The notes beneath the pieces were generated by a model that was not told where the DNA came from, made no database searches, and saw nothing but the letters and a program-made list of their open reading frames with translations. A DNA stretch of 42,238 nt from a virus, in IMG/VR virus record IMGVR_UViG_3300021964_000154, positions 1-42,238 of that record. One strand, given 5' to 3'. The position numbers and the translations under genes were made by a program. Shown in pieces: positions 7,897 through 41,363 of this stretch (the stretch's first letter is position 1; each line of letters opens with the position of its first letter).

Positions 7897-10634
7897 GCAA
7901 CACACTAGACAGACAGCTAGTTGAGTTAGACGAGTTCCCCGAAGAGATTGTGGAGCGAGGTGAAGAGGGCTATGAGTATGGCCTCACTCGTGAAGCAGAA
8001 CCAAAAGCGTTTGGACTGGGCTACTTAGGAAACTTGTTCACTCCCTACAGGCAAGAAGTTATTGAGCCTGAAGTAACTACACGCACACGCCTTGACACAC
8101 TTGGCATGGACAGCGTACCCGGTGAATATCTCAAAACATATAAGCCAGCAGAATATGGTGAGCCTGAGTTTGGTCTTGAGTATATGCCCATTGTCCGTGG
8201 CAGCAAGGCAGCATTCGACTATGCTGTTGATCTGTTTGATTCTGGCGAAGTAATGGACAAGACTATTGACAGCATTGCTACCATACCTTCTGCCATGTCT
8301 GATGCTATCTCCGATCAAGTGACTGCCGGTATGGGCATGATGATGGGCTACGAGTCCATGATTGATCGTGATGGCACAGAGATACGCTATGATCCATTGA
8401 TGGCACCTGCTGCTATGGCACCCGCTGGTATAACTGCTCGTGTGGTAGCTAAAGAAAGTGGTGATACTGTGCTTGGCATCTTCGGTGGTAAGCTAGGGAC
8501 AGGTGCTAAAGAGCGTGTCGATCTGGAGCAAAAAGCAGTTGAAGAAGTAAAGTCACTTCCTGAAGTAGAAATTGCACCAGAGGCAGCAGACAAAATAGTT
8601 GATGGCACTTCTCTTGTAAGGGCTGCAGCATATGGGGATGTGACTATAAAGATGCGCGATGAAATGGGTGACGTGATTGATAAAAATGTTCACCCTATGG
8701 ATGCTGCGCGTCTCGTGAAGAGATATGTCTTCCAAAGAAGCGGTGTATTTTTGGGTGAAGACGATATTAAAAGATATGAGATCAATACAGAAGATGTTAA
8801 TGTAGGGCCGGATTTCCTTAAATCTCTTGAGGATGTAAACTCAATAGAAAAGATTAACACAGATTTTAATCTGGGTGTAAAGCTGCCTTATGCCATAGAT
8901 TTTCCTGAATTGTTTGAAAACTATCCACACCTACGTGATTACAACGTAGAGTACCTTGATGCTGATGATATTGCAGAGGGTATCGGAGGACATCACGATA
9001 TTACCACAAAAACAATTCGTATGAACCCAGAGGTTGTGCCAAAGTTTATACAAGATGAAGATACAAAGCGTCGATATCTTTCTATAATGCTACACGAAAT
9101 ACAACATGCCGTTGATCGTTATGAAGGTAGACAGGCAGGTGCTAATAAATATATGTTCTTGCCTCGTGATTGGAAGGCAGGTCAGATGAGCAACAATATA
9201 GGTATGGTCAGAGAGTTCCAATCCATAGTAAAGGAAACAGACAGTAACCGTAGGTTGCCTAATTCAGAAGAATTGTTTGGCCCAGATGCTTTGGCGGGTG
9301 ATGTTGATATGATTGAAACCCAACTGGATGCAATCATAAACGACTTAGATACAATGAAGCAAGTAAAGACGGGCGAAATTGATGTCAAAGATGCGATGCC
9401 TATTGTAACTGAGCCTGAACTTCTCTTACAAATTGCAAGCAGTGACTACATGACAGAATTGTTTAAGAGAGCAAAAGCACGTGTTGATCTTAAAAAGCGT
9501 TTTGAAGAAGAGAAAAGAGAGGCATATGCTAAATATATGGTAGCCTCTGGTGAAGTTGATGCGCGTGAAGTTCAAGATCGGTTCAAGGAAGAGAATAGAT
9601 ACAAACAATTTAGTAAAGGCTACGGAGAGAATGTCATAAGGATAGATATGGATGATCCTATGACAACAAGACTTGGGCCTATAGACACAGCGGGAGAGGT
9701 TGATGAAGCTGGCAGAATAGAGGAGGGCTTTCGTCCCGTCCCCGGTCTTTTCACAGACTATGGCGCACCTCAAGGCAAAGACTTGAAGCTAACGAATTAT
9801 GAGGGTGATCCCGTGTCTGCACAGACAAATGACGCATTTAGTCTGATGGAGTCTGATGCTGTAAAAGCTGTAGGTTTGACAGAGGATGACATCAAGGCAT
9901 GGCGTAGGCCAAAAGAAGAAGGCGGCAATGCCACATCAGAAGAGTTTCGTAAAAGCCTAAAGGGCAGGGACGAAACACTACAGGCTATGGCAAAGAAAGT
10001 AGAAGCCGGTGAGGCAGACGTAAGTGAATACAGGAAGATGGCTGATGAGCGTAGGCCAATAAGCAGGGTTGAGAAAGTTCCAGAGCCAGCTACACCTGTT
10101 GAGATTGTAAGTGCATTGAATAAGGGACAACGTGCCAAGGGTATCGTAGGTGTAAACAAATCCATACCCGAAGGCGATCTTATCACGGCACGTCTAGATA
10201 TTAATGCGTACACTGACTACGATGTATGGGTGCCTACCCTAACACACCCTGAACTGAAGACTGTATACGCTCCTACCGTTGTAATGCGTGATGTCAGCTT
10301 TATTAAGCCGGGCGACAAGGCAGTGACCTCTGCTTTGAGAGTTGCAACTGGTGGAGAAAAGGCTCCGTTTGCTGTGATGCAGGGTAAGTATGTTGACATG
10401 AATGCAGATGACGCATTCAAATACGCACAAGAAACTTTCGATTCAGATGAGTGGACACAGGTAGGGTACGATCCTGTCAAGCGTGGCTTCTTCTATGACA
10501 GAGAGACTGGCGAAGCTATCGTGGAAGCAGATGAGGTTATACAGGTAGGCCATCTGGTCTTGGCGCGTAATGCCTCGAAGGTGGCACCCGAAGAGTTTCC
10601 ATTTAATCGTGGTGGCTTGATGTCTCGAAGCTAG
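7893..10634 (+). CDS. Polyvalent-type virion protein with HExxH metallopeptidase motif, 913 aa
   Basis: The motif LHEIQHAVDRYEGRQAG places the zinc-ligand pattern HExxH at residues 401-405, with a Glu at 411 as possible further ligand. Similar HEIQH/HELQH domains occur in large polyvalent proteins of phages and conjugative elements, where they are thought to be injected with the DNA. A second conserved region at about 764-905 (DINAYTDYDVWV, then WTQVGYDPVKRGFFYDRETG, then VIQVGHLVLARN) resembles a domain found at the ends of such proteins. The C-terminus carries the glycine tag FNRGGLMSRS. Last gene of the rightward block, meeting the leftward operon tail to tail. Proteolytic activity is inferred from the motif only. 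Confidence 0.65.
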   Translation: MSNTLDRQLVELDEFPEEIVERGEEGYEYGLTREAEPKAFGLGYLGNLFTPYRQEVIEPEVTTRTRLDTLGMDSVPGEYLKTYKPAEYGEPEFGLEYMPIVRGSKAAFDYAVDLFDSGEVMDKTIDSIATIPSAMSDAISDQVTAGMGMMMGYESMIDRDGTEIRYDPLMAPAAMAPAGITARVVAKESGDTVLGIFGGKLGTGAKERVDLEQKAVEEVKSLPEVEIAPEAADKIVDGTSLVRAAAYGDVTIKMRDEMGDVIDKNVHPMDAARLVKRYVFQRSGVFLGEDDIKRYEINTEDVNVGPDFLKSLEDVNSIEKINTDFNLGVKLPYAIDFPELFENYPHLRDYNVEYLDADDIAEGIGGHHDITTKTIRMNPEVVPKFIQDEDTKRRYLSIMLHEIQHAVDRYEGRQAGANKYMFLPRDWKAGQMSNNIGMVREFQSIVKETDSNRRLPNSEELFGPDALAGDVDMIETQLDAIINDLDTMKQVKTGEIDVKDAMPIVTEPELLLQIASSDYMTELFKRAKARVDLKKRFEEEKREAYAKYMVASGEVDAREVQDRFKEENRYKQFSKGYGENVIRIDMDDPMTTRLGPIDTAGEVDEAGRIEEGFRPVPGLFTDYGAPQGKDLKLTNYEGDPVSAQTNDAFSLMESDAVKAVGLTEDDIKAWRRPKEEGGNATSEEFRKSLKGRDETLQAMAKKVEAGEADVSEYRKMADERRPISRVEKVPEPATPVEIVSALNKGQRAKGIVGVNKSIPEGDLITARLDINAYTDYDVWVPTLTHPELKTVYAPTVVMRDVSFIKPGDKAVTSALRVATGGEKAPFAVMQGKYVDMNADDAFKYAQETFDSDEWTQVGYDPVKRGFFYDRETGEAIVEADEVIQVGHLVLARNASKVAPEEFPFNRGGLMSRS

Positions 10635-29437: not shown

Positions 29438-30430
29438 ATGGCGTTTAACGAATTTCAACTAGAAGAACTTAAAAAGATCGAAGGCTTTGGTAAAGGCTTT
29501 GAGGCAGGAGAGAAGACTGCTGCTGGTGCAATGGGTGACATTGCTCTGATTATGATTCCGGGTATGGGTACTATAAAGCTAGCCCGTACTGGCGGTAAGC
29601 TGACCAAGAGTGCTATGGACTTTGTAAAACGGGCAAAGAAGATGTACCCGAATGCAAAGGTCAACCCAACGCCTACTGCTGCCCAAGTATCCAATGCCAA
29701 GCCTATTAGTGGTGTTACACTAAAGAAACCTGCGGATGTAGCTGTCAGTGCATTGAAGCCACGCCCTCGTGCTACAGCACCGGGTGGTAAGCCCACTACA
29801 GCTGCCGCACCCAAGCCAAAGGTACGTGTACCTGCCGGTACTGCAGCTAAACCTGCACCGAAGGCTACAGCACCCAAGCCATCTGCTAAACCTGCAGCCA
29901 AGCCAAAGCCACAAGCAAAACCAAAGTCTAAAGTTGGTGATAAACCACAACGTGCTGCAGCTGCACTTGCAGCAGTAACTGCATTGGCAGGTGCTGAACT
30001 AGAATCTCGTAAAAGAAAAGAAGCAGAGGCAGCTAAGAAAAAACCTATTAAAGTTACGCAAGATCGTTCAGCTAAACAAAGTGAAGCTGCGGCAAAACCT
30101 AAGCCTAAGCGCAAGCCTATTAAAGTTACGCAAGATCGTTCTGCAAAGCAAAGTGAAGCAGCTGCAAAGGGTAAGCGTAAACCTATTAAAGTTACACAGG
30201 ATCGTTCAGCTAAACAGAGCGAAGCTGCGGCAAAGGGTAAGCCTACTGTTAAGTCACGTCCAAAGCCAGTCACCGCCGGTAAGAATGTAGGCTTTGGTCC
30301 GAAGGGTAACATCTTTCCGAAGGATGCAGCGGATCGTCGTAGGCTCATGGCAAAGTATGGCGGCACCGGTAGTGCTGCTGCCAAAGCTGCTGCCGATGGT
30401 AAGCAGGGTAACTTGAAGAAGAAGAAATAA
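29438..30430 (+). CDS. Lys/Ala/Pro-rich protein with threefold repeat, 330 aa
   Basis: N-terminal 75 residues are ordered (GFEAGEKTAAGAMGDIALIM has a hydrophobic helix). Residues 95-185 are Pro/Ala/Lys-rich like histone H1 or TolA linkers. From residue 203 the unit KPIKVTQDRSAKQSEAAAK occurs three times at 24- and 22-residue spacing, then a basic tail (NLKKKK). Strong positive charge suggests DNA contact in the capsid or nucleoid-like packing; this is inference. Preceded by AGGAG. TAATG overlap with the next gene. The long antisense frame here is a by-product of Ala/Lys codons. Confidence 0.65.
   Translation: MAFNEFQLEELKKIEGFGKGFEAGEKTAAGAMGDIALIMIPGMGTIKLARTGGKLTKSAMDFVKRAKKMYPNAKVNPTPTAAQVSNAKPISGVTLKKPADVAVSALKPRPRATAPGGKPTTAAAPKPKVRVPAGTAAKPAPKATAPKPSAKPAAKPKPQAKPKSKVGDKPQRAAAALAAVTALAGAELESRKRKEAEAAKKKPIKVTQDRSAKQSEAAAKPKPKRKPIKVTQDRSAKQSEAAAKGKRKPIKVTQDRSAKQSEAAAKGKPTVKSRPKPVTAGKNVGFGPKGNIFPKDAADRRRLMAKYGGTGSAAAKAAADGKQGNLKKKK
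30044..30240 (+). repeat. Three direct repeats inside the Lys/Ala-rich gene
   Basis: The sequence starting CCTATTAAAGTTAC recurs at 30044, 30116 and 30182, periods of 72 and 66 bases, in frame. Silent differences between copies (GCA/GCT, CAA/CAG) show that the protein repeat is kept while the DNA drifts. Confidence 0.75.
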
Positions 30431-30708
30431 TGGCCAAGAAAAAAAGTGACAACGTAACTGTTATTTCTATCGGCATTGGTTCTATGCCTAGAAAACAAAT
30501 GGAGAAGAAAATGAAAGCCAAGAAATACAATAAGGGTGGATATGCTAACTGCGGTGCGTCTATGCCAGCCACTCAAGGTTCTTCTAAGAAGATGGCCGCT
30601 GGCGGTATGATGAAGAAACCAGATAATCCCGGTCTTGCGAAGCTGCCAACTGCAGTGCGCAATAGAATGGGTTACATGGCATACGGCGGCTACGCTAAGA
30701 AGAAGTAA
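30430..30708 (+). CDS. Small basic protein with three glycine tags, 92 aa
   Basis: TAATG start. Basic N-terminus (MAKKKSDNVTVISIGIGSMP), then KKYNKGGYANCGASMP, KKMAAGGMMKKPDNPG and the C-terminal YMAYGGYAKKK, three copies of the recurring Gly-Gly-hydrophobic tag. No fold beyond that. The stop overlaps the next ATG (TAATG). Similar tag-bearing small proteins occur in other marine phages as I recall. Function unknown. Confidence 0.65.
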   Translation: MAKKKSDNVTVISIGIGSMPRKQMEKKMKAKKYNKGGYANCGASMPATQGSSKKMAAGGMMKKPDNPGLAKLPTAVRNRMGYMAYGGYAKKK

Positions 30709-30818
30709 TGGCCAAGCAATTCGCAAACAGCTTCATGAAGAAGCGTCGTATTCGTAGACCCGGAAGGCACAAGAAGAATGTTAACAAAGCTAACAAACCT
30801 AAAACGTACTTCGGTTAA
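30708..30818 (+). CDS. Small arginine/lysine-rich protein, 36 aa
   Basis: Product MAKQFANSFMKKRRIRRPGR, then HKKNVNKANKPKTYFG. The KRRxxRRPGRHKKN pattern recurs in small proteins of marine phages. Starts in a TAATG overlap and is itself overlapped for 41 bases by the next frame. Charge suggests nucleic-acid binding. Short but well supported by position and pattern. Confidence 0.6.
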   Translation: MAKQFANSFMKKRRIRRPGRHKKNVNKANKPKTYFG

Positions 30819-30918
30819 ATACTTCGGCTGGGGTTTGCTCTACATGGGCAAGCCCTTTACTCGTATTGGTAATTGGTTTTGGAAAAAGCACAGAGATGTG
30901 CTGAATTGGAATGATTAA
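30778..30918 (+). CDS. Small Trp/Lys-rich amphipathic protein, 46 aa
   Basis: ATG at 30778 lies within the previous gene in another frame, after GGAAGG and AAGAAG. The frame ends TAA 30916-30918, overlapping the next ATG (TAATG). Product: basic start (MLTKLTNLKRTSVK), YFGWGLLYMGKPFTRIGNWF, then WKKHRDVLNWND. Aromatic and basic residues alternate as in membrane-surface helices. It exactly bridges a gap that otherwise has no gene. A shorter start at 30844 is possible. Confidence 0.5.
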   Translation: MLTKLTNLKRTSVKYFGWGLLYMGKPFTRIGNWFWKKHRDVLNWND

Positions 30919-31289
30919 TGGTACAACCTGCCGCATTTGATACCGCAACGGAAAGCGTGACCATTACTGCTACTGCTGGTGGTGCTAGTTCTAATGTTAT
31001 ATATACTGTACCAAACTTTCACGATGCTACGGTGGAGTTCCTGCATATCAGTAATGGTGCAGCTTCTACAGATACCGTAAGCATACAGTGGTATCACAAA
31101 GAAGACAACGCATATTATACCATTCTAAGCAATAAATCTATTGCGGGTAATGACGTATTCAACATGATTACGGCAGACAGACTACACTTACATGCTGGCG
31201 ATAAGATTACGGCATTTAATGGTGGTGGTAGTAATTTGGGTGTAACCGTTTCTGTAAAAGAATACTACAACCCTGCCCGTAGAGCATAG
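30918..31289 (+). CDS. Beta-rich structural protein, 123 aa
   Basis: Alternating polar and hydrophobic residues throughout (ESVTITATAGGASSNVIYTV, VEFLHISNGAASTDTVSIQW, HAGDKITAFNGG, VTVSVKEYYNPARRA) indicate a beta-sandwich. Similar small proteins in marine phages look like head decoration or tail accessory proteins. The YxNPARR-type end is shared with those I recall. Virion role is likely but inferred. TAATG overlap upstream. Confidence 0.6.
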   Translation: MVQPAAFDTATESVTITATAGGASSNVIYTVPNFHDATVEFLHISNGAASTDTVSIQWYHKEDNAYYTILSNKSIAGNDVFNMITADRLHLHAGDKITAFNGGGSNLGVTVSVKEYYNPARRA

Positions 31290-31300
31290 GAGATAGGAGA

Positions 31301-31660
31301 ATGCCCCTCACAGCTAAAGGTTCTAAGATTAAAGCTGCCATGAAAAAGCAGTATGGTGTAGAAAAAGGCGAGGACGTGTTCTATGCAGCAGCCAACAAAG
31401 GAACAGTTAAAGGCGTGGCGAAAAAGCAAAAGCTTGCGAAAGGCGGGGCAGCTAGAAAAGCTAGCAAACCGAAGAAGTCTAAAAAGAAGAGCAAGAGTAG
31501 AGTTAATGAAGCTGGCAACTACACTAAGCCAGCACTGAGAAAAAGATTATTTGAAAAGATTAAAGCTGGCAGTAAGGGTGGCAAGCCCGGTCAGTGGTCA
31601 GCACGTAAGGCGCAGATGCTGGCACGTGAATACAAGGCAGCAGGGGGCGGCTACAAGTAA
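31301..31660 (+). CDS. Two-part basic protein, 119 aa
   Basis: First half: MPLTAKGSKIKAAMKKQYGV, then EDVFYAAANKGTVKGVAKK, a pattern seen in many phage proteins. It is followed by the tag LAKGGAARKASKPKK. Second half: SRVNEAGNYTKPALRKRLFE, then GGKPGQWSARKAQMLAREYK, ending AAGGGYK, a separate conserved marine-phage domain. Both domains are of unknown function. Strongly basic. AGGAG at six bases. TAATG with the next gene. Confidence 0.7.
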   Translation: MPLTAKGSKIKAAMKKQYGVEKGEDVFYAAANKGTVKGVAKKQKLAKGGAARKASKPKKSKKKSKSRVNEAGNYTKPALRKRLFEKIKAGSKGGKPGQWSARKAQMLAREYKAAGGGYK

Positions 31661-31857
31661 TGGAAAAGCAAATTGTTGGCGGCTTGATGGCATTGCTGAT
31701 GGCTCTTGCTGCGTGGAATATGAAAACTGTAAATGACCTGCAACTTGAGATGCGGGAAGTTATGGTAGGCCATGCCACTGCAAAAGACATTGAAGAGTTA
31801 AGGCAAGACGTATTACGTCTGCAATGGGTTTTACATGACGAGGCTGTAGACAAATGA
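31660..31857 (+). CDS. Small membrane protein with coiled-coil tail, 65 aa
   Basis: One N-terminal span (IVGGLMALLMALAAW) followed by a charged helix (LQLEMREVMVGHATAKDIEE, LRQDVLRLQWVLHDE). The layout is the same as for the gene at 675-902, and both end in a coiled coil. Candidate lysis-accessory or virion membrane protein, but unproven. Confidence 0.6.
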   Translation: MEKQIVGGLMALLMALAAWNMKTVNDLQLEMREVMVGHATAKDIEELRQDVLRLQWVLHDEAVDK

Positions 31858-31858
31858 A

Positions 31859-32047
31859 ATGAAACACGTCTTTCTCCTATTGGTATTTCTTGGGATAGGA
31901 GAAGACAAACGTCAGGTCAGCAGCGACATGTACTTTCGTGACCTGAATGAATGTGTCTGGTATGCACAGAAACTCCATAAGCAGGGAGAGAATATCTCTG
32001 CATATTGCTTACCCAAATTAGTGAACGAAGATATGGAGACGTACTGA
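31859..32047 (+). CDS. Small exported protein with cysteines, 62 aa
   Basis: Signal-like start (MKHVFLLLVFLGIG), then SSDMYFRDLNECVWYAQKLH and ISAYCLPKLVNEDMETY. Two cysteines in the mature part could pair. Similar in plan to the protein at 28934 (hydrophobic leader, aromatic-x-x-x-E-C helix, later Cys). Familiar as a small unknown protein in marine phages. TGATG overlap with the next gene. Confidence 0.6.
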   Translation: MKHVFLLLVFLGIGEDKRQVSSDMYFRDLNECVWYAQKLHKQGENISAYCLPKLVNEDMETY

Positions 32048-32478
32048 TGCTTGCCGAACTCGCTGCTGCCAACGCTGCCTTCGCCGTTATCAAGACGGCT
32101 GTCCAGAACGGCAAGGACATTGCTGCTGCCGGTAGTGCGATTGCAAGCTTCGTCGGTGCCAAAGAAGACCTGCAAAAGAAAACCCAGAAGAAGGGTGGCG
32201 GCGGTGACCTAGAAGAGTTCTTGGCTCTTGAGCAGATACGTGAGCAGGAAGAGCAACTTCGTCAGATTATGATATACACAGGCCGTCCGGGTTTATGGAA
32301 TGACTGGCAGAAGTTTCAGGCAAAGGCACGTGTATCTAGACGTGAGGCAGAAGAAGAACGCATACGCAAGCGTAAGATGTATTTTGAAATAGCTATTGTG
32401 ACATTTCTTTTAATTGTGGGCTTGACAGTCTTGGCTGCATTTGTTATACTAGCACTACATTCACAGGGAAAAATTTAA
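32047..32478 (+). CDS. Conserved marine-phage membrane protein, 143 aa
   Basis: Amphipathic N-terminus (MLAELAAANAAFAVIKTAVQ, GKDIAAAGSAIASFVGAKED), a charged helix with QIMIYTGRPGLWNDWQKFQA, and a C-terminal span (IAIVTFLLIVGLTVLAAFVI). I know the GRPGLWNDW family from many marine phages, function unknown. ATG at 32047 (TGATG) is preferred over the upstream frame start at 32005, which lies within the previous gene. Its 3' end contains a promoter-like sequence (32422-32450). Confidence 0.7.
   Translation: MLAELAAANAAFAVIKTAVQNGKDIAAAGSAIASFVGAKEDLQKKTQKKGGGGDLEEFLALEQIREQEEQLRQIMIYTGRPGLWNDWQKFQAKARVSRREAEEERIRKRKMYFEIAIVTFLLIVGLTVLAAFVILALHSQGKI
32422..32450 (+). promoter_or_regulatory. Near-perfect sigma70 promoter inside a gene
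   Basis: TTGACA (32422-32427), 17 bases, TATACT (32445-32450). Exact -35, five of six -10 bases. Placed at the end of the membrane-protein gene and just before the block holding holin-like genes, lysozyme, terminase and portal. Confidence 0.5.
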
Positions 32479-32726
32479 TGGCACTTCGCACTCCCCAGCA
32501 AAGCCTCAAAGACTGGACAAAGCAGAAGTGGCGCACTAAGTCTGGTAAGCCATCAGCACAGACTGGTGAACGCTATCTCCCAGAGAAAGCAATTAAATCC
32601 TTGACATCTGCTGAATACTCTGCTACAACTAGAGCCAAAAGAGCAGGAACACGGAAAGGCCAACAGTTTGTACGACAGCCTCAGTCAATTGCAAAAAAGA
32701 CTGCAAGATTTCGCAGAGGCTCATAA
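32478..32726 (+). CDS. Small basic conserved phage protein, 82 aa
   Basis: MALRTPQQSLKDWTKQKWRT, then KSGKPSAQTGERYLPEKAIK, then SAEYSATTRAKRAGTRKGQQ. The SLKxWTKQKWRTKSGKPS and GERYLPEKAI blocks are a pattern common in marine phages, algal viruses and some bacteria. Function unknown. TAATG overlap with the gene before. Confidence 0.75.
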   Translation: MALRTPQQSLKDWTKQKWRTKSGKPSAQTGERYLPEKAIKSLTSAEYSATTRAKRAGTRKGQQFVRQPQSIAKKTARFRRGS

Positions 32727-32850
32727 CGACCCTCGTGAAGTAAGGCTAGTGGACGTTGAGTCTGACTTTGATAATCGTGTATTTCTCCTGAAGAAAAAGA
32801 TATGGGAACTGAAGCAAAATGATACAGGCACTAATCGGACCTATAGCTAG
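32668..32850 (+). CDS. Candidate small coiled-coil protein, 60 aa (TTG start)
   Basis: Open frame from TTG at 32668 (AAAGG nine bases upstream), overlapping neighbours on both sides and filling the gap 32727-32818. Product MYDSLSQLQKRLQDFAEAHN, then VRLVDVESDFDNRVFLLKKK and IWELKQND: regular heptads and good composition. Rare start codon and long overlaps keep this tentative. Confidence 0.4.
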   Translation: MYDSLSQLQKRLQDFAEAHNDPREVRLVDVESDFDNRVFLLKKKIWELKQNDTGTNRTYS

Positions 32851-33205
32851 TTTAGCTGGCACATGGCTAGAAGGCAAAGTTGAAACAAAGAAAGCAGAAA
32901 CCGGAGCCAAGGTCGCTAAAGCACGTGCTGAAGCAGTTATCATGGAGAAGAAGGCTACGGGTGAAATTGATTGGGACTTGGAGATGGCTAAAGGTAGTCA
33001 GTCTTCGTGGAAGGATGAATGGCTGACTATCTTGTTCAGCATTCCGCTTATCCTCGCATTCATTCCCGGTATGGAAGAGGTAGTTGCAAATGGCTTCGCA
33101 CAACTCAATGCAATGCCTGAATGGTATCAGTATTCACTGGGAGTCATCGTTGCCGCTTCTTTTGGCGTACGTTCAGCTACAAAATTCTTTGGTAAAAACA
33201 AATGA
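32819..33205 (+). CDS. Holin-like protein, 128 aa
   Basis: N-terminal short helix (MIQALIGPIASLAGTWLEGK), charged helix, then WKDEWLTILFSIPLILAFIP and YQYSLGVIVAASFGVRSATK, two spans after a Trp-rich approach. This is the pattern of the 3-span holins of gene-transfer agents and many marine phages. Followed by another membrane protein and a T4-type lysozyme, a lysis cassette. Holin function is inferred. ATGA overlap with the next gene. Confidence 0.65.
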   Translation: MIQALIGPIASLAGTWLEGKVETKKAETGAKVAKARAEAVIMEKKATGEIDWDLEMAKGSQSSWKDEWLTILFSIPLILAFIPGMEEVVANGFAQLNAMPEWYQYSLGVIVAASFGVRSATKFFGKNK

Positions 33206-33402
33206 CAATTGTAATGGAAAGAGTGCTGGCTTGGAAAATCCTGCCACGCCTGATGATGATTATGATGTCCGTGTCTGCTTGGCGTGTCGTTGAGTGGTTC
33301 ATGACTTTGCCAGACCCGACGACGCAGCAGTCTGCTCTTGTTAGTGTAGTCACTGGCGCAATGACTGGTGCGTTTGCCGTATGGATGGGACACGAGAAAT
33401 GA
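33202..33402 (+). CDS. Second small membrane protein of the lysis cassette, 66 aa
   Basis: MTIVMERVLAWKILPRLMMI, MMSVSAWRVVEWFMTLPDPT, then ALVSVVTGAMTGAFAVWMGH: two spans separated by a short PDPTTQ loop. Class II holin-like or anti-holin-like in size and topology. ATGA overlaps with both neighbours, so the three lysis genes are translationally linked. Confidence 0.6.
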   Translation: MTIVMERVLAWKILPRLMMIMMSVSAWRVVEWFMTLPDPTTQQSALVSVVTGAMTGAFAVWMGHEK

Positions 33403-33884
33403 AATATCGTAGAGACAATTTGATTGAGAAGCTGATTAGCCATGAAGGGCTGCGTCTTGAGGTGTATCAGGACACGCTTGGCATCAACACAATCGGCATT
33501 GGTAGAAATCTAGATGACCGGGGTATCACACAGGATGAACTGGACTGGATGGATTATCCGACTATTGAACATGTTTATTCTGATGGCATCACTGAAGCTG
33601 ACGCCATGTACCTCGCACAGAATGACGTACAGATTGTCGAAGAAGAACTTCTCGCTGCGCACCCTTGCGTAGAGAACTTAGACGCTGTACGTCAACTTGT
33701 TCTCGTAGATATGGCATTTAATCTTGGTGTACCTCGTCTGTGTAAGTTTAAGAATATGTGGAATGCCATTCATGAGGGCAACTTTGAAGCAGCAGCAAAA
33801 GAGATGCTGGACAGCAGGTGGGCAACGCAAGTCAAAGGACGTGCTACCAAACTTGCTAACGCAATGCACAACGGAGAGTTTTAA
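33399..33884 (+). CDS. T4-type lysozyme (GH24 endolysin), 161 aa
   Basis: Cleaves peptidoglycan at lysis. E16, D25 and T31 (SHEGLRLEVYQDTLGINTIG) reproduce T4 lysozyme E11-D20-T26 in order and spacing. Continues with the usual helical part (FNLGVPRLCKFKNMWNAI, SRWATQVKGRATKLA). No signal peptide, so it needs a holin. ATG at 33399 overlaps the previous stop; a frame start at 33381 lies inside the neighbour. Confidence 0.92.
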   Translation: MKYRRDNLIEKLISHEGLRLEVYQDTLGINTIGIGRNLDDRGITQDELDWMDYPTIEHVYSDGITEADAMYLAQNDVQIVEEELLAAHPCVENLDAVRQLVLVDMAFNLGVPRLCKFKNMWNAIHEGNFEAAAKEMLDSRWATQVKGRATKLANAMHNGEF

Positions 33885-33970
33885 TGTCTAAAGATTTCAA
33901 ACCGTGTAAAGGTTGTCCGACACCTGCTAACTGCAGTGCTGTAGGTAAGTGCCAAAACAAAGGTAAGTAA
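33884..33970 (+). CDS. Four-cysteine microprotein, 28 aa
   Basis: TAATG overlap with the lysozyme stop, TAA at 33968-33970. Product MSKDFKPCKGCPTPANCSAV, then GKCQNKGK. Cysteines at 8, 11, 17 and 23 are spaced like a small zinc or disulfide knuckle. I recall near-identical MSKxFKPCKGCP starts in other marine phages. Located between lysozyme and the small terminase gene. Function unknown. Confidence 0.6.
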   Translation: MSKDFKPCKGCPTPANCSAVGKCQNKGK

Positions 33971-33971
33971 T

Positions 33972-34346
33972 ATGGCTAGACAACTAACAGAGAAGCAGCA
34001 GAAGTTTCTGGCTGTTCTTTTTGATGAAGCCGGTGGCGATATGGTCATGGCTAAGAAGATGGCTGGGTACTCTGACACAAGTTCGACTGGGGAAATTGTC
34101 AAGGGCTTGAAGGAAGAAATCCTTGAGGCCACCCAGATGTACATGGCGCGTAATGCACCGAAGGCTGCTATGGCTATGACCGGCGCACTGTATGACCCAA
34201 CTGAACTTGGCATTCGTGATAAGATGTCTGCTGCAAAAGAACTGCTTGACCGTGTAGGTCTTGTAAAGACAGAGAAGATGCAGGTAGAGGCATCCGGTGG
34301 TGTTATGCTTATGCCACCGAAAGCCGCAGTAGAGGAGGATGACTGA
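33972..34346 (+). CDS. terS: Terminase small subunit-like protein, 124 aa
   Basis: Starts LTEKQQKFLAVLFDEAGGDM, with a helix-turn-helix-like MAKKMAGYSDTSSTGEIVKG, then TELGIRDKMSAAKELLDRVG and a conserved VEASGGVMLMPPKA end. The pattern is that of small terminases and related DNA-packaging proteins (Terminase_2 type), which recognise the genome and load the large subunit. Two genes upstream of the large terminase. TerS role likely but not proved. Confidence 0.65.
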   Translation: MARQLTEKQQKFLAVLFDEAGGDMVMAKKMAGYSDTSSTGEIVKGLKEEILEATQMYMARNAPKAAMAMTGALYDPTELGIRDKMSAAKELLDRVGLVKTEKMQVEASGGVMLMPPKAAVEEDD

Positions 34347-34606
34347 TGGCTGCTATAAACAAAAAAGGCGATAACAGCGTTATTTCACGCATTGAATATA
34401 TTGATAAACAATTAACAAATCCTAAATTGTCTCCTAAAGAAATTAAAATCCTTGAGTTGCGTCAAGAGAATTTAATGAAAATGTTAGCTGATGATCAGAT
34501 GACCTTCAACAAAGGCGGAATGTCCACTAAAAAATCTCGTGGCGCGACTGACTATCGTAAAGGTGGTATGGTTCTTTCCAGCGTAGATAACCGTAAAAAG
34601 AAATGA
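34346..34606 (+). CDS. Small protein with two glycine tags, 86 aa
   Basis: Helical first part (SRIEYIDKQLTNPKLSPKEI, LELRQENLMKMLADDQ), then MTFNKGGMSTKKSRGATDY and RKGGMVLSSVDNRKKK, two copies of the Gly-Gly-hydrophobic tag in a basic tail. ATG follows the previous stop region (GATGACTGATGG). Not recognised beyond the tags. Next to terminase genes. Confidence 0.6.
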   Translation: MAAINKKGDNSVISRIEYIDKQLTNPKLSPKEIKILELRQENLMKMLADDQMTFNKGGMSTKKSRGATDYRKGGMVLSSVDNRKKK

Positions 34607-35004
34607 CTAGAAGCGTAGGCAAGTGGAAGTTACCACAGCCCACAGACATAAAAGAAGAAAACGAATGGGTGCCTATCCCGCGTATTGCAAGGACTGTACC
34701 ATTTGGCTATAAGCAGAACGAAGAAGACCCCGACATTCTTGACCCTATCAAAGTCGAACTAGACTTGCTAGAGAAGGCACGTAAATACGTCAATCAGTAT
34801 TCTTACCGTGAGGTAGCTAACTGGCTGACATCAAACAGCGGCAGATACATCTCACACGTAGGATTGAGGAAACGGTTAGCACATGAGCGACAGCGTAAGA
34901 ACACAGCTAAAAGCCTCCGCAAGTGGGCAGAGTATGCGGAAACGGCAATCGCCAAAGCGAAGGAAATCGAAGAAGCAAGAACCGGAGCAAAAGCCAACGG
35001 TTGA
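34603..35004 (+). CDS. Helix-turn-helix-like protein beside terminase, 133 aa
   Basis: The centre (ARKYVNQYSYREVANWLTSN, SGRYISHVGLRKRLAHERQR) has the look of a resolvase-type helix-turn-helix: helix, turn at SNSGRYISH, recognition helix VGLRKRL. Long charged helix follows. The protein precedes the large terminase in many marine phages as I recall. Could be the true DNA-recognising packaging subunit. ATGA-type overlap with the gene before; overlaps terL by 122 bases. Confidence 0.65.
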   Translation: MTRSVGKWKLPQPTDIKEENEWVPIPRIARTVPFGYKQNEEDPDILDPIKVELDLLEKARKYVNQYSYREVANWLTSNSGRYISHVGLRKRLAHERQRKNTAKSLRKWAEYAETAIAKAKEIEEARTGAKANG

Positions 35005-36442
35005 AATTGCAGAGGTTGAATATGAAGCATCTAGCATTGAAGAACATGCTAACGTACTATTCAAACCTAATCCGGGTCCGCAGACAGAATTTCTTGCCGC
35101 ATCGGAACGTGAAGTTCTCTACGGCGGCAGTGCAGGGGGCGGTAAGTCATATGCAATGCTTGCTGACCCACTGCGTTACATGGGACATCCGCAGTTTAGC
35201 GGACTGCTCCTGCGACACACGACAGAAGAACTGCGTGAACTTATCTTCAAGTCTCAGGAGTTGTATCCAAAAATTTGGCCCGGTATCAAGTGGTCAGAAA
35301 GAAAGATGCAGTGGACCGCGCCATCTGGCGCAAGGTTGTGGATGTCCTACCTAGACAGGGATGAGGATGTCTTGCGTTATCAGGGTCTGGCTTTTAGCTG
35401 GATAGGCTTTGACGAACTGACACAATGGGCCACACCATACGCATGGAATTATATGCGAAGTCGTCTTCGGTCCACTGCACCTGATTTGCCTATCTTTATG
35501 AGGGCTACGACTAACCCCGGCGGTAGAGGGCATCACTGGGTTAAGAAAATGTTTATTGACCCTGCACCGTATAATAGGCAATTTGATGCAACCGACATTG
35601 AAACAGGAGAGGTACTCAAGTACCCCGCTGGACATAGCAAGGCTGGAAAGTCCCTATTTAAGAGACGCTTTATCCCGGCAAGACTTTCTGATAACCCATA
35701 CCTTGCGACAGCGGGTGACTATGAAGCCATGCTCCTCTCGCTTCCAGAACAGCAGCGTAGGCAGCTTCTTGAAGGCGATTGGGACATCAAAGAAGGCGCA
35801 GCGTTTACTGAGTTTGATAGGCGGGTTCATGTTGTTGAACCTTTTTATATCCCTAGTAACTGGGTCAAGTTTCGTGCATGTGACTATGGCTACGGGAGTT
35901 ATACTGGCGTTCTTTGGTTTGCAGTTGCGCCTGACGAGCAACTTATCGTATATCGAGAACTATACGTCAGCAAAGTCCTCGCCACAGACTTGGCTGATAT
36001 GATACTGGACTTGGAAGCCGAAGATGGGAACATTAAGTATGGTGTGCTGGATAGCAGTCTTTGGCATAAGCGTGGCGATACTGGACCGTCTCTTGCGGAA
36101 CAGATGATTAGTAAGGGATGCCGTTGGCGTCCATCAGACAGAAGTAGAGGTAGTCGTGTAGCCGGTAAGAACGAAATACACAGGCGTCTTCAGATTGATG
36201 AGTTTACAGAGGAACCTAGACTTGTATTTTTTGATAGCTGCACAAATGTCATCAGTCAGTTACCGGCCCTGCCGATTGACAAGAAAAATCCAGAAGACGT
36301 TGACACAAAGTCTGAAGACCATTTGTACGACGCCCTCCGGTATGGGATTATGTCTCGACCCCGGTTCTCTATTTTCGACTACGACCCGCACGGCAGACCG
36401 TCAAGCGGAATGCAAATAGCTGATTCTACCTTTGGCTACTAA
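34883..36442 (+). CDS. terL: Terminase large subunit, 519 aa
   Basis: Packaging motor ATPase and nuclease. Walker A GGSAGGGKS at 81-89, Walker B with D177-E178 (FSWIGFDE), coupling motif RATTNPGG at 207-214, nuclease acids D334 (ACDYGYGSYTG), D390 (YGVLDSS) and D479/D483 (SEDHLYDALRYG). The 50 basic residues at the N-terminus are extra. ATG 34883 is the start used here; ATG 34934 is possible and would reduce the overlap with the upstream gene. Confidence 0.94.
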   Translation: MSDSVRTQLKASASGQSMRKRQSPKRRKSKKQEPEQKPTVEIAEVEYEASSIEEHANVLFKPNPGPQTEFLAASEREVLYGGSAGGGKSYAMLADPLRYMGHPQFSGLLLRHTTEELRELIFKSQELYPKIWPGIKWSERKMQWTAPSGARLWMSYLDRDEDVLRYQGLAFSWIGFDELTQWATPYAWNYMRSRLRSTAPDLPIFMRATTNPGGRGHHWVKKMFIDPAPYNRQFDATDIETGEVLKYPAGHSKAGKSLFKRRFIPARLSDNPYLATAGDYEAMLLSLPEQQRRQLLEGDWDIKEGAAFTEFDRRVHVVEPFYIPSNWVKFRACDYGYGSYTGVLWFAVAPDEQLIVYRELYVSKVLATDLADMILDLEAEDGNIKYGVLDSSLWHKRGDTGPSLAEQMISKGCRWRPSDRSRGSRVAGKNEIHRRLQIDEFTEEPRLVFFDSCTNVISQLPALPIDKKNPEDVDTKSEDHLYDALRYGIMSRPRFSIFDYDPHGRPSSGMQIADSTFGY

Positions 36443-36453
36443 GGAAAAGTAAC

Positions 36454-38592
36454 ATGGATGAAGATGAAATCATGATTGAAGACGACGCTATTGCGTTGGA
36501 GGATACAGACGATTCTGTGCAGTACGATGCAGATGTGTCTAACATTATTCCTGTAATCATGGAAAAGTACAAACGAGCCGAAGACTACCGGTATCAGGAC
36601 GAAGAACGGTGGCTTAGAGCATACCGTAACTACAGGGGTCTCTATGGACCTGATGTCCAGTTCACTGAATCTGAAAAGTCTCGTGTCTTTATCAAGGTTA
36701 CAAAGACCAAAACACTGGCAGCTTACGGTCAGATTGTTGACGTGCTGTTTGCTAACAATAAGTTTCCACTTTCCATTGAGCCTACTGAACTGCCGGAAGG
36801 CGTAGTTGCTGATGTTCATTTTGATCCGCAAGAACCGGAGCAGCTGCGTGGCGATACAATGCTGTCTAGCCCTTACGGTTTTCCGGGTGACGGACGTGAT
36901 TTACCGCCGGGTGCTACAGCTAAATCACTGCGAGAACAGCTTGGTCCTCTTGGTGAAAAGTTGCAGCCTGTAGAAGATAAACTGAAAGAAGGTCCAGGCA
37001 AGACGCCTACTGCAATTGAGTTTAGCCCTGCTATGATTGCAGCTAAGAAGATGCAGAAGAAAATTCACGACCAGCTTGAGGAGTCTGGTGCTAACAAGAA
37101 CTTGCGCAGCAGTGCATTTGAAATGGCACTATTCGGCACTGGCATCATGAAAGGTCCGTTTGCTACAGATAAAGAGTACGCTAACTGGAGTGATGATGGC
37201 GAATACGATCCTGTTTTCAAAACTGTGCCACAAGTAAATCATGTATCGGTATGGAACTTCTACCCTGATCCAGATTCAAATAACATGGATGAGGCGCAGT
37301 TTATTATTGAACGGCACAAGCTGTCTCGTTCCCAACTACGTCAACTTAAAAAGCGTCCGTATTTCCGTGATCAAGTTATTGACGAAGCAATTAGGATGGG
37401 CGAAAACTACACTAAAAAGTATTGGGAAGATGATCTGTCTGACTATGCGCCAGAACACGGTATTGAACGATTTGAAGTGCTGGAATATTGGGGTACTGTA
37501 GACACAGACTTGCTGGAAGAGAATAACGTAGACATTCCAAAAGAACTGAAAGACTTTGATGAACTTCAGGCAAACGTGTGGATTTGTAACGGTAAACTTC
37601 TACGTATGGTTTTGAATCCGTTTAAGCCAGCACGTATTCCTTACGTAGCTGCACCTTATGAACTAAACCCATACAGCTTCTTTGGTGTAGGTATTGCAGA
37701 GAACATGGACGACACGCAGACGCTGATGAACGGCTTCATGCGTATGGCTGTAGATAACGCTGTGCTGTCAGGCAATTTGATTGTAGAGGTAGACGAGACC
37801 AATCTGGTACCGGGACAAGACCTGTCTCTATATCCGGGTAAGGTGTTCCGTCGTCAGGGCGGCGCACCGGGTCAGGCTATCTTTGGCACAAAGTTCCCGA
37901 ATGTGTCTTCTGAAAATATGATGCTGTTTGACAAGGCACGGCAGCTTGCAGACGAAAGCACCGGCTTCCCGTCATTTGCTCACGGTCAAACCGGTGTTAC
38001 CGGTGTTGGTCGTACTGCCAGCGGCATCTCCATGCTAATGGGTGCTGCTGCTGGTAGCATCAAGACTGTCATCAAGAATGTAGACGATTATCTGCTCCGT
38101 CCTCTTGGCGAAGGTTTCTTCCGCTTTAACATGCAGTTTGACTTTGATCCCGAAATTAAAGGCGACCTTGAAGTTAAAGCACGTGGAACAGAAAGCCTCA
38201 TGGCTAACGAAGTACGTAGTCAGCGTCTCATGCAGTTCCTGCAAGTAGCAAGTAATCCTGCTCTTGCACCATTCGCAAAGTTCCAATATGTAATCCGCGA
38301 GATTGCAAAGTCTATGGACCTTGACCCCGACAAAGTTACCAACAATATGAGTGAAGCTGCCCTGCAAGCGGAACTAATGAAACAGTTCCAAGCACCGATA
38401 CCAGAGCAACAACAAGGCGCACCTGCTGGTGCAGATGCTATGGATACTTCTGGTGCAGGGGGCGGCACAATGGGCGTAGGTATGGCTCCTACTCCGGGTG
38501 AACAAGGATTTAGTGGAAATGGACAAGCAACAAATACTCAGCCGCCTGAAGCCGGTGGTCAACAACAACCGCCAATGGGAGGCATTCAATAA
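36454..38592 (+). CDS. Portal protein, 712 aa
   Basis: Follows terL after 11 bases with AAGGAA upstream. Acidic N-terminus, then YRYQDEERWLRAYRNYRGLY, VFIKVTKTKTLAAYGQIVDV, and in the second half NMDDTQTLMNGFMRMAVDNA and GVTGVGRTASGISMLMGAA: a large portal of the marine podovirus type. Forms the dodecameric ring at the capsid vertex through which DNA passes. The C-terminus is Gln/Gly/Pro-rich (QQQGAPAGADAMDTSGAGG) and probably disordered. Confidence 0.88.
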   Translation: MDEDEIMIEDDAIALEDTDDSVQYDADVSNIIPVIMEKYKRAEDYRYQDEERWLRAYRNYRGLYGPDVQFTESEKSRVFIKVTKTKTLAAYGQIVDVLFANNKFPLSIEPTELPEGVVADVHFDPQEPEQLRGDTMLSSPYGFPGDGRDLPPGATAKSLREQLGPLGEKLQPVEDKLKEGPGKTPTAIEFSPAMIAAKKMQKKIHDQLEESGANKNLRSSAFEMALFGTGIMKGPFATDKEYANWSDDGEYDPVFKTVPQVNHVSVWNFYPDPDSNNMDEAQFIIERHKLSRSQLRQLKKRPYFRDQVIDEAIRMGENYTKKYWEDDLSDYAPEHGIERFEVLEYWGTVDTDLLEENNVDIPKELKDFDELQANVWICNGKLLRMVLNPFKPARIPYVAAPYELNPYSFFGVGIAENMDDTQTLMNGFMRMAVDNAVLSGNLIVEVDETNLVPGQDLSLYPGKVFRRQGGAPGQAIFGTKFPNVSSENMMLFDKARQLADESTGFPSFAHGQTGVTGVGRTASGISMLMGAAAGSIKTVIKNVDDYLLRPLGEGFFRFNMQFDFDPEIKGDLEVKARGTESLMANEVRSQRLMQFLQVASNPALAPFAKFQYVIREIAKSMDLDPDKVTNNMSEAALQAELMKQFQAPIPEQQQGAPAGADAMDTSGAGGGTMGVGMAPTPGEQGFSGNGQATNTQPPEAGGQQQPPMGGIQ

Positions 38593-38740
38593 CTACTTCG
38601 ATGATGCTATTGCGCAGCATCATAAAGTAATGGAACAATCAACAGATACTATTGCCTTGCATAGAGAGCAAGGAGCAATAGCAGTATTGCGTAAACTAAA
38701 ACAACTCAGGGATGAGATTAATGGAACGTCCAACTTCTAA
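38519..38740 (+). CDS. Small helical protein overlapping portal, 73 aa
   Basis: ATG at 38519 (MDKQQILSRLKPVVNNNRQW) within the last 74 bases of portal; a GTG at 38498 is an alternative. Continues FDDAIAQHHKVMEQSTDTIA and GAIAVLRKLKQLRDEINGTS. Similar short helical proteins sit directly after portal in related phages. Possibly a portal-associated or head completion factor; no evidence from motif. Confidence 0.65.
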   Translation: MDKQQILSRLKPVVNNNRQWEAFNNYFDDAIAQHHKVMEQSTDTIALHREQGAIAVLRKLKQLRDEINGTSNF

Positions 38741-41363
38741 ACCATCAAAAGCGCAGATGGAAGAAATACTGAAAGCTACAGACAGGGAACGTGTTCGTAA
38801 CATGTCGCTTCCAGAAAGTAAACCTTCTGAAAAAGAAATAGCAGAGATGAAAGAAGCAGGACGCCAAGAGTTCCGCGATAATAAGCAGCGAGTTATAGAT
38901 CACTTAAAAAAACGTGGCTTAAGCAATGCAGCTATTGCAGGTATTGTTGGAAACATTGACGTAGAAACCGGTGGATCATTCGATTACACACAACGTCAAA
39001 CTCGATCCGGTAATCCTCGTGATCCTCGTACAATAGAAAGTGGCGGTTATGGTTTGTTTCAGTTTGATGATCCTCGCAATAAAGCGGGACATGAAACATG
39101 GTATAAGCAATACCTAGAAGATAAGAACAAAGAAGATAGCGCAGAATCGCAGTTAGATTATTTTTTAGACATGGTTATGGCTGGTGAGGATTCACAAGAC
39201 CCTAACTACAAATACGCAAAAAATATGGGCGGAGGAAATGCCGGTACTATAAAAGCGTATTTACAGACTAATACAAACCCAGCACAAATTTCAGATGCTA
39301 TCACAGATAGATTTGAACTTCCCGGTATTCAACACTCTGATCGTCGCAGGGAGTCTGCGAAAAAAACTTTTGCAGAACTTGCCCCGCTGGAACGTAACGA
39401 GTTTGTACCGTCTATACCGGATGAAAGTGACCCGGCACAATACTTGAATCAACCGGGTGAAATTCGTGATACCGATACGGAAGTGCCTATTGTTGACGTA
39501 CCAGATGACGAATCTACATTTCAAAAAATTAAACCTTACATACCTATACTAAGACATTTTAACGAGGGCGGCATGTCTACTACAGAATCTGAAATGCAAA
39601 CATATCCTATTACCGAAGATATGATCGAGTCTCTCAATAGTATGACGGAAGAAGAGCGAGAGGCTTTCCGCAAACGTATTATGTCACGTGCTATTGAAGA
39701 TATGCAGCGGGGGGAAAGGTTTATGAAACCTCTGTCTACAGAAGGAGAAAATAGTCTAAAAAAATTACGTCGTTACTATGAAAAAGGCGGCATAGCTAAA
39801 CAAATGGAACTATTTGAAGACGGCGGTCTTATGGATGAAGGTGGTACAGTAGACCCTGTGTCGGGCAATGATGTGCCACCCGGCTCTACACAAGAGGAAG
39901 TAAGAGACGATATTCCAGCGCAACTTAGCGAGGGAGAGTTTGTATTTCCTGCAGACGTAGTTCGTTTTATTGGCCTTGAGAAACTAATGCAAATGCGTCA
40001 ACAAGCTAAGATGGGCCTTCAAACGATGGAAGACATGGGACAGATGGGCAATAGCGATGAAGCCATTATGCCGGATGATCTTCCGTTTGACATTAATGAT
40101 CTTGACATGGAAGACGATCTTGAGTATAATGTCGGTGGTTTTGTACCGGGACAGAGTAATCCATATGGTATTGCGGGTACACAGCAGTCTGCATTTGCGG
40201 GTGGTGTAGGTGGATACATGCCGTATCAGATGCCGCAGTACGGTCAGACACCAATGGCGCAAGCATATGTACCTGCACAACAACAGTTTGTTCCAACACA
40301 ACCTGTGCCGACTACATTGCCAACACCAGAACAATTCCTTCCCAAGACGCCTACTGATCCAGAGGTAACAACTAAAGAGTATATTAATCCCGAAACCGGC
40401 GAGAAACGTGTTATTACTTTTGTAGGTGGCCAGCCTACGATTGCAATTCCAGATGGTTTTATTACTATGGAAGAGTATCAAAAAACGCAGCCGCCTAAAA
40501 CTGAAGTTACTCCTGCTACACCCGAAACAACACGTGTAGTAGAACGAGATGATAGCGATGATGACCGTCGCCGCCGGGAAGAAGAAGAAATGTTTGGTCC
40601 CGGTGGTGGTAGGCTTGGTGTAGGTGGTGAAACATATGGCGTATCATTTGATATGCCGGAAGGATTTATGCCGGGTGCTATGGGCGTTGCAGGAACAGCG
40701 TTTGGTCTTTTGTCTGGTAAGCCTTTACCATCAGGGGTTACAGTTAATTTCCAAAGGGGTAAAGATAAATTCAAACTTACTGGAGATGAGTATAATCGGT
40801 TAAAAACTTCTATTGATGAGTCGGGGGCAAATTCTCCTGCCACTAGCGATCTTTTAGCAAACATAAAACAAGACGCACTTACAAGAGAAGCTAATAAAAG
40901 AGTTGCGGAACAAGAACGTATTGCTAAAGAAACACGAGAGCAACTTAAACGTGCAAACGAATTGGCTAGTAATGACGAAGAACGTGATCGAATTTTTGAT
41001 AACATAATTCAACAAAAAATTAAAGAGGCCACAAAAGAAGTTGCAGCAGACACGGGTTACGACGAAGACCTTGGTTCCGCACCTACTGCTGGTACAGGAA
41101 AAACTCGTGCTGAGTTGACACGAGAAAGAAATGAATCATACTTTGGTGACATTGGTGGTGGATCAGATAGCAGCAGTGGCCAGTCTTCTGGTGGAGGTCG
41201 TACAGGCTCGTCTAGCACGGATTGGAGTCAGCCAGACTCTAGTGCCAGTGTAGGAAGCCAAAGTGACTACGATAAAATGTACGGCAATCAAGGTGGTTTA
41301 GCATCTAAACCAAAACCCAAAGTCAAGAAGATGAAGCAAGGTGGACTAGCTTCTAAAAAATAG
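38721..41363 (+). CDS. Virion lysozyme fusion with glycine tags, 880 aa
   Basis: N-terminal phage-tail-lysozyme type domain at about 57-210: NAAIAGIVGNIDVETGGSF with likely catalytic E82, then GGYGLFQFDD and a helical end. A linker follows with tags FNEGGMSTTE (about 283), YEKGGIAKQ, FEDGGLMDEGG, then a widespread marine-phage module, DPVSGNDVPPGSTQEEVRDD and LSEGEFVFPADVVRFIGLEK. After this come NVGGFVPGQ, a Pro/Gln-rich stretch, a coiled coil (about 710-780) and a Gly/Ser-rich end with two QGGLASK tags. Probably a virion protein that locally opens peptidoglycan. ATG 38721 is preferred over 38712 because AGGG is nine bases away. Confidence 0.7.
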   Translation: MERPTSKPSKAQMEEILKATDRERVRNMSLPESKPSEKEIAEMKEAGRQEFRDNKQRVIDHLKKRGLSNAAIAGIVGNIDVETGGSFDYTQRQTRSGNPRDPRTIESGGYGLFQFDDPRNKAGHETWYKQYLEDKNKEDSAESQLDYFLDMVMAGEDSQDPNYKYAKNMGGGNAGTIKAYLQTNTNPAQISDAITDRFELPGIQHSDRRRESAKKTFAELAPLERNEFVPSIPDESDPAQYLNQPGEIRDTDTEVPIVDVPDDESTFQKIKPYIPILRHFNEGGMSTTESEMQTYPITEDMIESLNSMTEEEREAFRKRIMSRAIEDMQRGERFMKPLSTEGENSLKKLRRYYEKGGIAKQMELFEDGGLMDEGGTVDPVSGNDVPPGSTQEEVRDDIPAQLSEGEFVFPADVVRFIGLEKLMQMRQQAKMGLQTMEDMGQMGNSDEAIMPDDLPFDINDLDMEDDLEYNVGGFVPGQSNPYGIAGTQQSAFAGGVGGYMPYQMPQYGQTPMAQAYVPAQQQFVPTQPVPTTLPTPEQFLPKTPTDPEVTTKEYINPETGEKRVITFVGGQPTIAIPDGFITMEEYQKTQPPKTEVTPATPETTRVVERDDSDDDRRRREEEEMFGPGGGRLGVGGETYGVSFDMPEGFMPGAMGVAGTAFGLLSGKPLPSGVTVNFQRGKDKFKLTGDEYNRLKTSIDESGANSPATSDLLANIKQDALTREANKRVAEQERIAKETREQLKRANELASNDEERDRIFDNIIQQKIKEATKEVAADTGYDEDLGSAPTAGTGKTRAELTRERNESYFGDIGGGSDSSSGQSSGGGRTGSSSTDWSQPDSSASVGSQSDYDKMYGNQGGLASKPKPKVKKMKQGGLASKK
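40102..40130 (+). promoter_or_regulatory. Perfect sigma70 promoter inside the lysozyme-fusion gene
   Basis: TTGACA (40102-40107), 17 bases, TATAAT (40125-40130): all 12 bases match. It would start transcription near 40137, about 1.3 kb before the scaffold and, beyond the window, the capsid genes. Lies in codons for DLDMEDDLEYN. Confidence 0.55.

Follow-up and report, generated by a model that had tools for sequence, protein, structure and literature searches.

Introduction

In phage T4, one short shared sequence, the capsid-targeting sequence (CTS), brings different internal or ejected proteins, and Alt, into the head core (PMC5694885). The CTS is an N-terminal propeptide of 10-20 residues that is removed by the prohead protease (PMC5694885). 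Polyvalent phage proteins are portrayed in passages of Iyer et al. 2017 (PMC5512222) as large late proteins of several domains that combine a zincin-type HExxH with exchangeable modules and for which injection is predicted. Here we describe a short Gly-Gly element that recurs in the late proteins of IMG/VR virus record IMGVR_UViG_3300021964_000154, a stretch of 42,238 bases (hereafter the window) in which a block of replication genes runs leftward and a block of late genes rightward. Judged by its sequence, the window is a fragment of an HMO-2011-type marine podovirus. We propose, with a probability of about 0.5, that the element is a linear docking or sorting motif of phage ejection (internal core) proteins.

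Like the CTS, the Gly-Gly element is one short sequence common to otherwise different proteins, for which a loading role is proposed here. Unlike the CTS, it has a different sequence and lies at the C-terminus or internally rather than at the N-terminus; no prohead-type protease was found among the proteins scanned by domain search. As in polyvalent proteins, a late protein (the product of window gene 7893, with counterparts in the related loci L282 and L121) combines a zincin-type HExxH with further modules. Unlike here, no shared Gly-Gly tag is given in the passages of PMC5512222 that describe those proteins. Of the named polyvalent-associated domains, one was matched below the cut-off in a relative (L035) and none in the window protein. 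We found no published description of the tag among the open-access papers examined, subscription papers lying outside this coverage, and a tblastn search of the tag against annotated phages returned no matches, the query probably being too short.

A Gly-Gly motif enriched on the virion side

A preliminary description of the window had listed Gly-Gly peptides in several rightward genes and proposed that they are confined to virion proteins and reflect a common partner. Translation and a motif scan found all the named peptides at their genes. One of them, YGGYAKKK, does not fit the pattern that had been proposed for the set, and the pattern itself proved loose: rightward proteins hold 15 matches (overlapping matches counted) against 3.4 after shuffling, leftward proteins 2 against 1.3. 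In fact, it also matches the helicase (FKAEGGF), at the rate expected by chance, so that the statement that no replication protein has the motif does not hold for this form.

It does hold for a stricter form, [YFML]-x-[KRNEQADS]-G-G-[LMIVYF], which occurs 10 times in the rightward proteins of the window (1.16 after shuffling) and not once in the leftward ones (0.51). Under local shuffling within 20 residues the rightward expectation is 1.36, and 10 matches were reached in 0 of 2000 shuffles. This form was picked after the window had been inspected; thus, relatives serve as the independent test. These comprise HMO-2011 itself (L001) and 160 IMG/VR loci that surround the genes for the large terminase and the ribonucleotide reductase; the loci are incomplete, and many nearly duplicate one another. 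Their genes were called heuristically, by a codon model fitted to the window, and the proteins were divided by strand. The virion strand carries 282 strict motifs where local shuffling predicts 60, and the replication strand 4 where it predicts 21, so the strand bias proposed for the window extends to its relatives. Because homologues repeat and raw counts mislead, we added a family-level test in which each family was represented by a single protein. The motif is then present in 14.7 of 145 virion-side families (4.7 when shuffled), compared with 0.13 of 119 replication-side families (1.5 when shuffled). Global, local and family-level shuffles together rule out chance or composition as the origin of the motif.

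The motif is also conserved within families, here named after the start of the window gene. It is present in 29/29 members of the 34346 family, in 53/59 of the 38712 core family, in 19/25 of the 30430 family, in 13/26 of the 902 family (mostly at residue 52) and in 23/26 members of a further small family that has no member called in the window. When Ala-Ala is substituted for Gly-Gly, the resulting motif shows a 2.3-fold excess among virion-side proteins; other dipeptides tested in this position reach at most 1.5-fold there. A separate observation is that the replication-side proteins of the relatives contain 106 copies of an Ala-Gly version, a 4.3-fold excess that is probably one conserved site repeated across homologues.

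Placement at the C-termini of unrelated proteins

Virion-side motifs fall in the last 25 residues in 36% of cases, a zone that holds only 9% of the residues. This placement was also seen in IMG/VR DNA-pattern scans, which covered two spellings of the tag with position-blind patterns. Among the matches listed, F[R/S]KGGMV lies at most 25 residues from the stop codon in 90/119, and FNKGGMA at most 30 residues from it in 37/57. The C-terminal copies follow the consensus [KD]-[MFY]-[RK]-[KR]-G-G-[ML]-[AV] plus a basic tail, one form of the tag peptide being FRKGGMVLSTVDNRKKK. Their mean net charge in a 20-residue window is +4.35, compared with +0.97 for internal copies, which are often acidic (e.g. 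FEDGGL, FDEGGL). Counted from the first Gly, position -3 is conserved as Met, Phe or Tyr, and position -2 is mostly Arg, Lys, Asn or Ala, with Met in 17%.

The proteins that end in this way are otherwise very different. Members of the 34346 family have entirely different N-termini, LysM domains among them, on a constant tail that reads DFRKGGMVLSTVDNRKKK or GGLATKNYVNPVTIVDNRKKK up to the stop codon. The window member (34346..34606, + strand) encodes an 86-residue protein between the terminase genes, with FNKGGMS (34505-34522) and YRKGGMV (34553-34570) on the same strand; its C-terminal tag is DYRKGGMVLSSVDNRKKK. After the last 30 residues were trimmed, 191 distinct tagged bodies fell into 72 clusters. 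About 70 unrelated bodies is thus an upper estimate, given that a handful are chance matches (e.g. the T7 capsid protein) and that short bodies may be over-split. One such body, in locus L218, has a weak, sub-cut-off transglycosylase-like match and is encoded next to the terminase gene of a different phage. In some loci, several tagged small genes lie side by side. From gene position and domains, we infer that the tagged proteins are virion proteins.

Selection on the peptide

The tag of gene 34346, YRKGGMVLSSVDNRKKK (34553..34606, + strand), belongs to a set of 52 distinct tag DNAs that all encode R, K, G, G, M, V, S and D at fixed places but with varying synonymous codons. The second Gly, for example, is GGT in 27 and GGC in 22, and Phe is TTC in 22 and TTT in 21. 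At the first Gly of virion-side motifs in HMO-type loci, GGA makes up 1-2% of codons, compared with 19% of all Gly codons. Synonymous variation combined with avoidance of GGA at this position points to selection on the protein and not on a ribosome-binding site. Indeed, GGAGG is present in 5/303 motif DNAs and the next start codon lies at Shine-Dalgarno distance from the motif in 1/90. Thus, a Shine-Dalgarno origin, conceivable since AAAGGAGG encodes Lys-Gly-Gly, is ruled out by the avoidance of GGA, the rarity of GGAGG and the start spacing, and a DNA-level site for packaging or for a promoter is unlikely because the synonymous codons vary. The scarcity of GGA suggests that the phage preserves the peptide yet avoids an internal ribosome site.

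The portal-adjacent core protein and its exchangeable modules

Many of the motifs in the window are found in an 883-residue protein (38712..41363, + strand), whose start had previously been placed at 38721. It carries an N-terminal phage tail lysozyme domain (Phage_lysozyme2, residues 56-221, E 1e-18) and at least six Gly-Gly motifs. Among them, all on the + strand, are FNEGGM (39558..39575), YEKGGI at the junction of the N-terminal module and the core (39777..39794), FEDGGL at the start of the core (39813..39830), with GGL invariant in the alignment, and the C-terminal tags GNQGGLASK and MKQGGLASKK (41283..41348). Its last residues, KMKQGGLASKK, agree with a family consensus C-terminus KxGGLASKK. 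The conserved core module (residues 363-447; 39798..40052, + strand), of the DDIPAxLSEGEFV type, reads KQMELFEDGGLMDEGG...DDIPAQLSEGEFV...GQMGN and has invariant columns across 40-45 homologues. In nearly every HMO-type locus a gene of this type follows the portal gene directly or one small gene off; in the window, the portal protein itself (36454..38592, + strand; SU10_portal, E 8.1e-27) carries no tag.

Across homologues, the core (KQMELFEDGGL...DDIPAQLSEGEFV...GQMGN) begins anywhere from residue 38 to beyond residue 1000, because the N-terminal module is exchanged. This module is Phage_lysozyme2 in the window and in locus L276, lysozyme plus LysM in L076 and, in L035, a weak and sub-cut-off match to the polyvalent-associated domain LPD23 (E 0.0072); most of the others matched no known family in the domain scan. 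A sequence search of the PDB gave no match.

The core resembles tape-measure proteins. Both have a GEFV module and the same succession F-x-K-G-G-M ... D-x-[IV]-P-A-x-L-[ST]-x-G-E; tape-measure-like proteins repeatedly show FSKGGMV followed by GTDTVPAMLTPGE. The window core matches tape-measure families weakly (E 0.0075 and 0.099), and the cores of L350, L166, L320 and L347 match tape-measure PHROGs with E down to 1.5e-11. In L350, the core gene is directly followed by a member of a DNA-ejection-protein family. Unlike tape-measure proteins, however, the relatives described here belong to gene sets of podovirus type, whose SU10-type portal and adaptor point to a short-tailed phage, and small proteins also carry the motif by itself as a C-terminal tag.

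Motif and core come together in two further ways. Of 47 long core fusions, 34 carry the motif just before the core, and modules fused in one phage are found as separate tagged proteins in another. In L014 and L195, a 504-residue open reading frame (ORF) that ends in MKSKGGLI lies immediately upstream of the core gene; it matches, at E 0, the module that is fused in L025. In the window, gene 7893 (7893..10634, + strand), far from 38712, encodes a 913-residue candidate cargo protein that matches the fused N-terminal module of L282 (E 4.6e-86). In view of this homology, the earlier statement that the tagged proteins share no other sequence is not fully accurate. The alignment spans the joint: the window protein ends ...HLVLARNASKVAPEEFPFNRGGLMSRS where L282 continues ...HLVLAKKAQKGNPEDFAFNKGGVVPMKEQMEMFEDGGL..., so that its C-terminal tag FNRGGLMSRS (10602..10634, + strand) aligns with the FNKGG joint of L282. 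Following the logic of gene fusion, tagged cargo and core would work together, the C-terminal tag corresponding to the joint. The HExxH of gene 7893 (HEIQH, residue 401) is conserved, as HEIQH in L282 and HEVEH in L121; its match to Peptidase_M91 is below the cut-off, as is a weak similarity of its C-terminal stretch to mycobacteriophage L5 gp82 (E 0.0017).

Isolate genomes (n=13, not independent) were scanned with a looser pattern, which gave a few chance matches in core-less controls. Tag-like proteins are present in all 7 isolates in which a core was matched; the six without a core (T7, P22, SIO1, P-SSP7, HTVC010P and HTVC019P) lack a convincing basic tag and show a weak motif excess at best.

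Possible functions of the element

To explain these results we propose that the element, with a core [F/Y/M]-x-[K/R/N/E]-G-G-[M/L/V]-[A/V] and, in C-terminal copies, an additional basic tail (e.g. VDNRKKK), would mark cargo modules that are to be assembled with the tape-measure-like core protein next to the portal. The cargo would comprise domains that lyse or bind peptidoglycan, a zincin-like module and many small proteins of no assigned function. It could be attached in cis, where a Gly-Gly joint fuses it to the DDIPAxLSEGEFV core, or in trans, as a separate protein ending in the tag, and in both cases it would be packaged and ejected with the genome. A common putative receptor (the core module, the portal or another head protein) would bind the tag. 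The idea of a common partner has in fact gained from the strand bias, conservation, C-terminal placement, unrelated bodies, protein-level constraint and equivalence of tag and joint. Among the three roles first suggested (sorting tag, protease site or sticky motif), the evidence leans towards a docking or sorting tag. A bolder version, in which the tag is a general loading code of the tailed-phage ejection machinery, native to tape-measure and internal core proteins and detached as a plug-in by which each phage would load interchangeable injected proteins beside its portal, seems to us possible but rather doubtful.

Several observations weigh against a docking motif of ejection proteins. The core protein bears the tag itself, so that the receptor may be something else. 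A tagged protein in L236 (3744-4511, - strand) has at its start a signal of Tat type (SRRTFLKGLAATGAVA; E 7.9e-7 to Pfam TAT_signal), which is unexpected for a virion-internal protein. Of 15 separate module homologues with complete C-termini, 5 passed a strict C-terminal test; inspection adds tagged ones in L079 (RYKGGMI at the stop codon) and L121 (DKGGLMARR at the stop codon), and several others are short or marginal matches. The roseophages CRP-2 and CRP-212 show few clear tags. The predicted structure of the core region is of low confidence, supports neither side and was not used.

The main rival, which we regard as unlikely, is a maturation protease site, where a cut after Gly-Gly would free cargo from the fusions and trim the basic tails. 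Adenain-type cleavage sites have the form (M/I/L)-x-G-G-x, with a hydrophobic residue two before the first Gly. The Gly-Gly-X sites of adenovirus and asfarvirus proteases are likewise found at joints and within small, basic proteins of core type, and the multiple sites in the small basic proteins described here recall those of adenovirus core precursors. The motif does fall at module joints, and the HExxH of the 7893 module is conserved. Unlike in adenain sites, however, the hydrophobic residue (M/F/Y) stands three before the first Gly, one position further out, and residues past Gly-Gly are conserved, up to 12 of them in the 34346-type tag; moreover, no matching protease, and no peptidase above the cut-off, was found among the virion proteins scanned. 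A phage precedent is P1 DdrB, likewise with a metallopeptidase, which according to a passage in PMC5512222 is processed before packaging.

Alternatively, the basic C-terminal tails could bind DNA, the proteins being carried in with the genome and Gly-Gly serving as a flexible spacer. The charge around the C-terminal motifs and RGG-like repeats in one small protein family fit such a role, which we still find quite improbable: the aromatic residue or Met at -3 and the Met or Leu at +2 are constrained as much as the charges, and the internal copies are often acidic. The identity in sequence of fusion joint and tag would also be expected if the tag were a leftover linker from gene fission, or a recombination joint at which modules are swapped. 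We give this little credence, since synonymous sites lack the conservation expected of a recombination site and the longest conserved tag, GGMVLSTVDNRKKK, sits on proteins not seen fused to a core in the loci examined. Finally, Lys, Gly and Met are abundant in late protein tails, and the element could have been an artefact of local composition or of Shine-Dalgarno sequences; the excess over local shuffles, the rare GGAGG, the low use of GGA and the start spacing reject this, leaving it next to no likelihood.

Other tagged genes and genome context

The preliminary description had drawn the tagged interval as 30430-41363, which leaves out two members of the same set, gene 7893 and gene 902. The latter (902..2968, + strand) encodes a 688-residue late protein with an N-terminal double motif QMARGGVVKMQTGG; the motif of the peptide MARGGVVKM lies at 1055-1072. 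Gene 30430 (30430..30708, + strand) encodes a basic protein of 92 residues with three Gly-Gly sites, YNKGGYA (30526-30543), MAAGGMM (30592-30609) and, at the C-terminus, YGGYAKKK (30676-30693), all on the + strand. Gene 31301 (31301..31660, + strand) encodes a basic protein of 119 residues with LAKGGAARK (motif at 31433-31450). This is a weaker, Ala-type variant: a loose pattern is matched in 21/37 homologues, the strict one in none.

Gene 31301 is also part of a syntenic group of small basic late proteins (GQWSARKAQMLAKEY, SFCAR...LRAWNC and KQAIAIALSEA types) at 29131-29424, 31301-31660 and 32478-32726 of the window. The same set recurs in tagged loci of different phages (L187, L188, L199, L232 and L267). 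The neighbouring lysine- and alanine-rich gene 29438 contains direct repeats of KRKPIKVTQDRSAKQSEAAAK at 29990-30250; a 423-residue open frame antisense to it (29455-30726, - strand) is probably an artefact of composition. Among the late small genes of HMO-2011 lies one annotated as methanesulfonate monooxygenase (47357-48439, - strand), with a family of n=15 in the fetched set.

The stretch from terminase to portal is 77% identical in nucleotides to Puniceispirillum phage HMO-2011 and 66-74% identical to the best-matching CRP-series roseophages. HMO-2011-type phages are defined by two CXXCXGXG motifs in the polymerase (PMC9038755). The window polymerase (19224-17182, leftward) has a DnaJ-like cysteine insert with CRECNGTG and CKVCDAQG, the latter deviating from the motif in that Ala replaces the first Gly. 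Judged by comparison with HMO-2011, the coat gene and its neighbours lie outside the record.

Significance

HMO-2011-type phages are a dominant and widely distributed marine group, according to part of PMC9038755, and most of their late genes lack a known function. If the element is a loading tag, sequence alone would predict which of these proteins enter the host, and the regions of small genes would become candidate injected effectors. It would also offer a route to load cargo into phage particles. Should it turn out to be a protease site instead, the maturation chemistry of the HMO-2011-type group would be defined by it.

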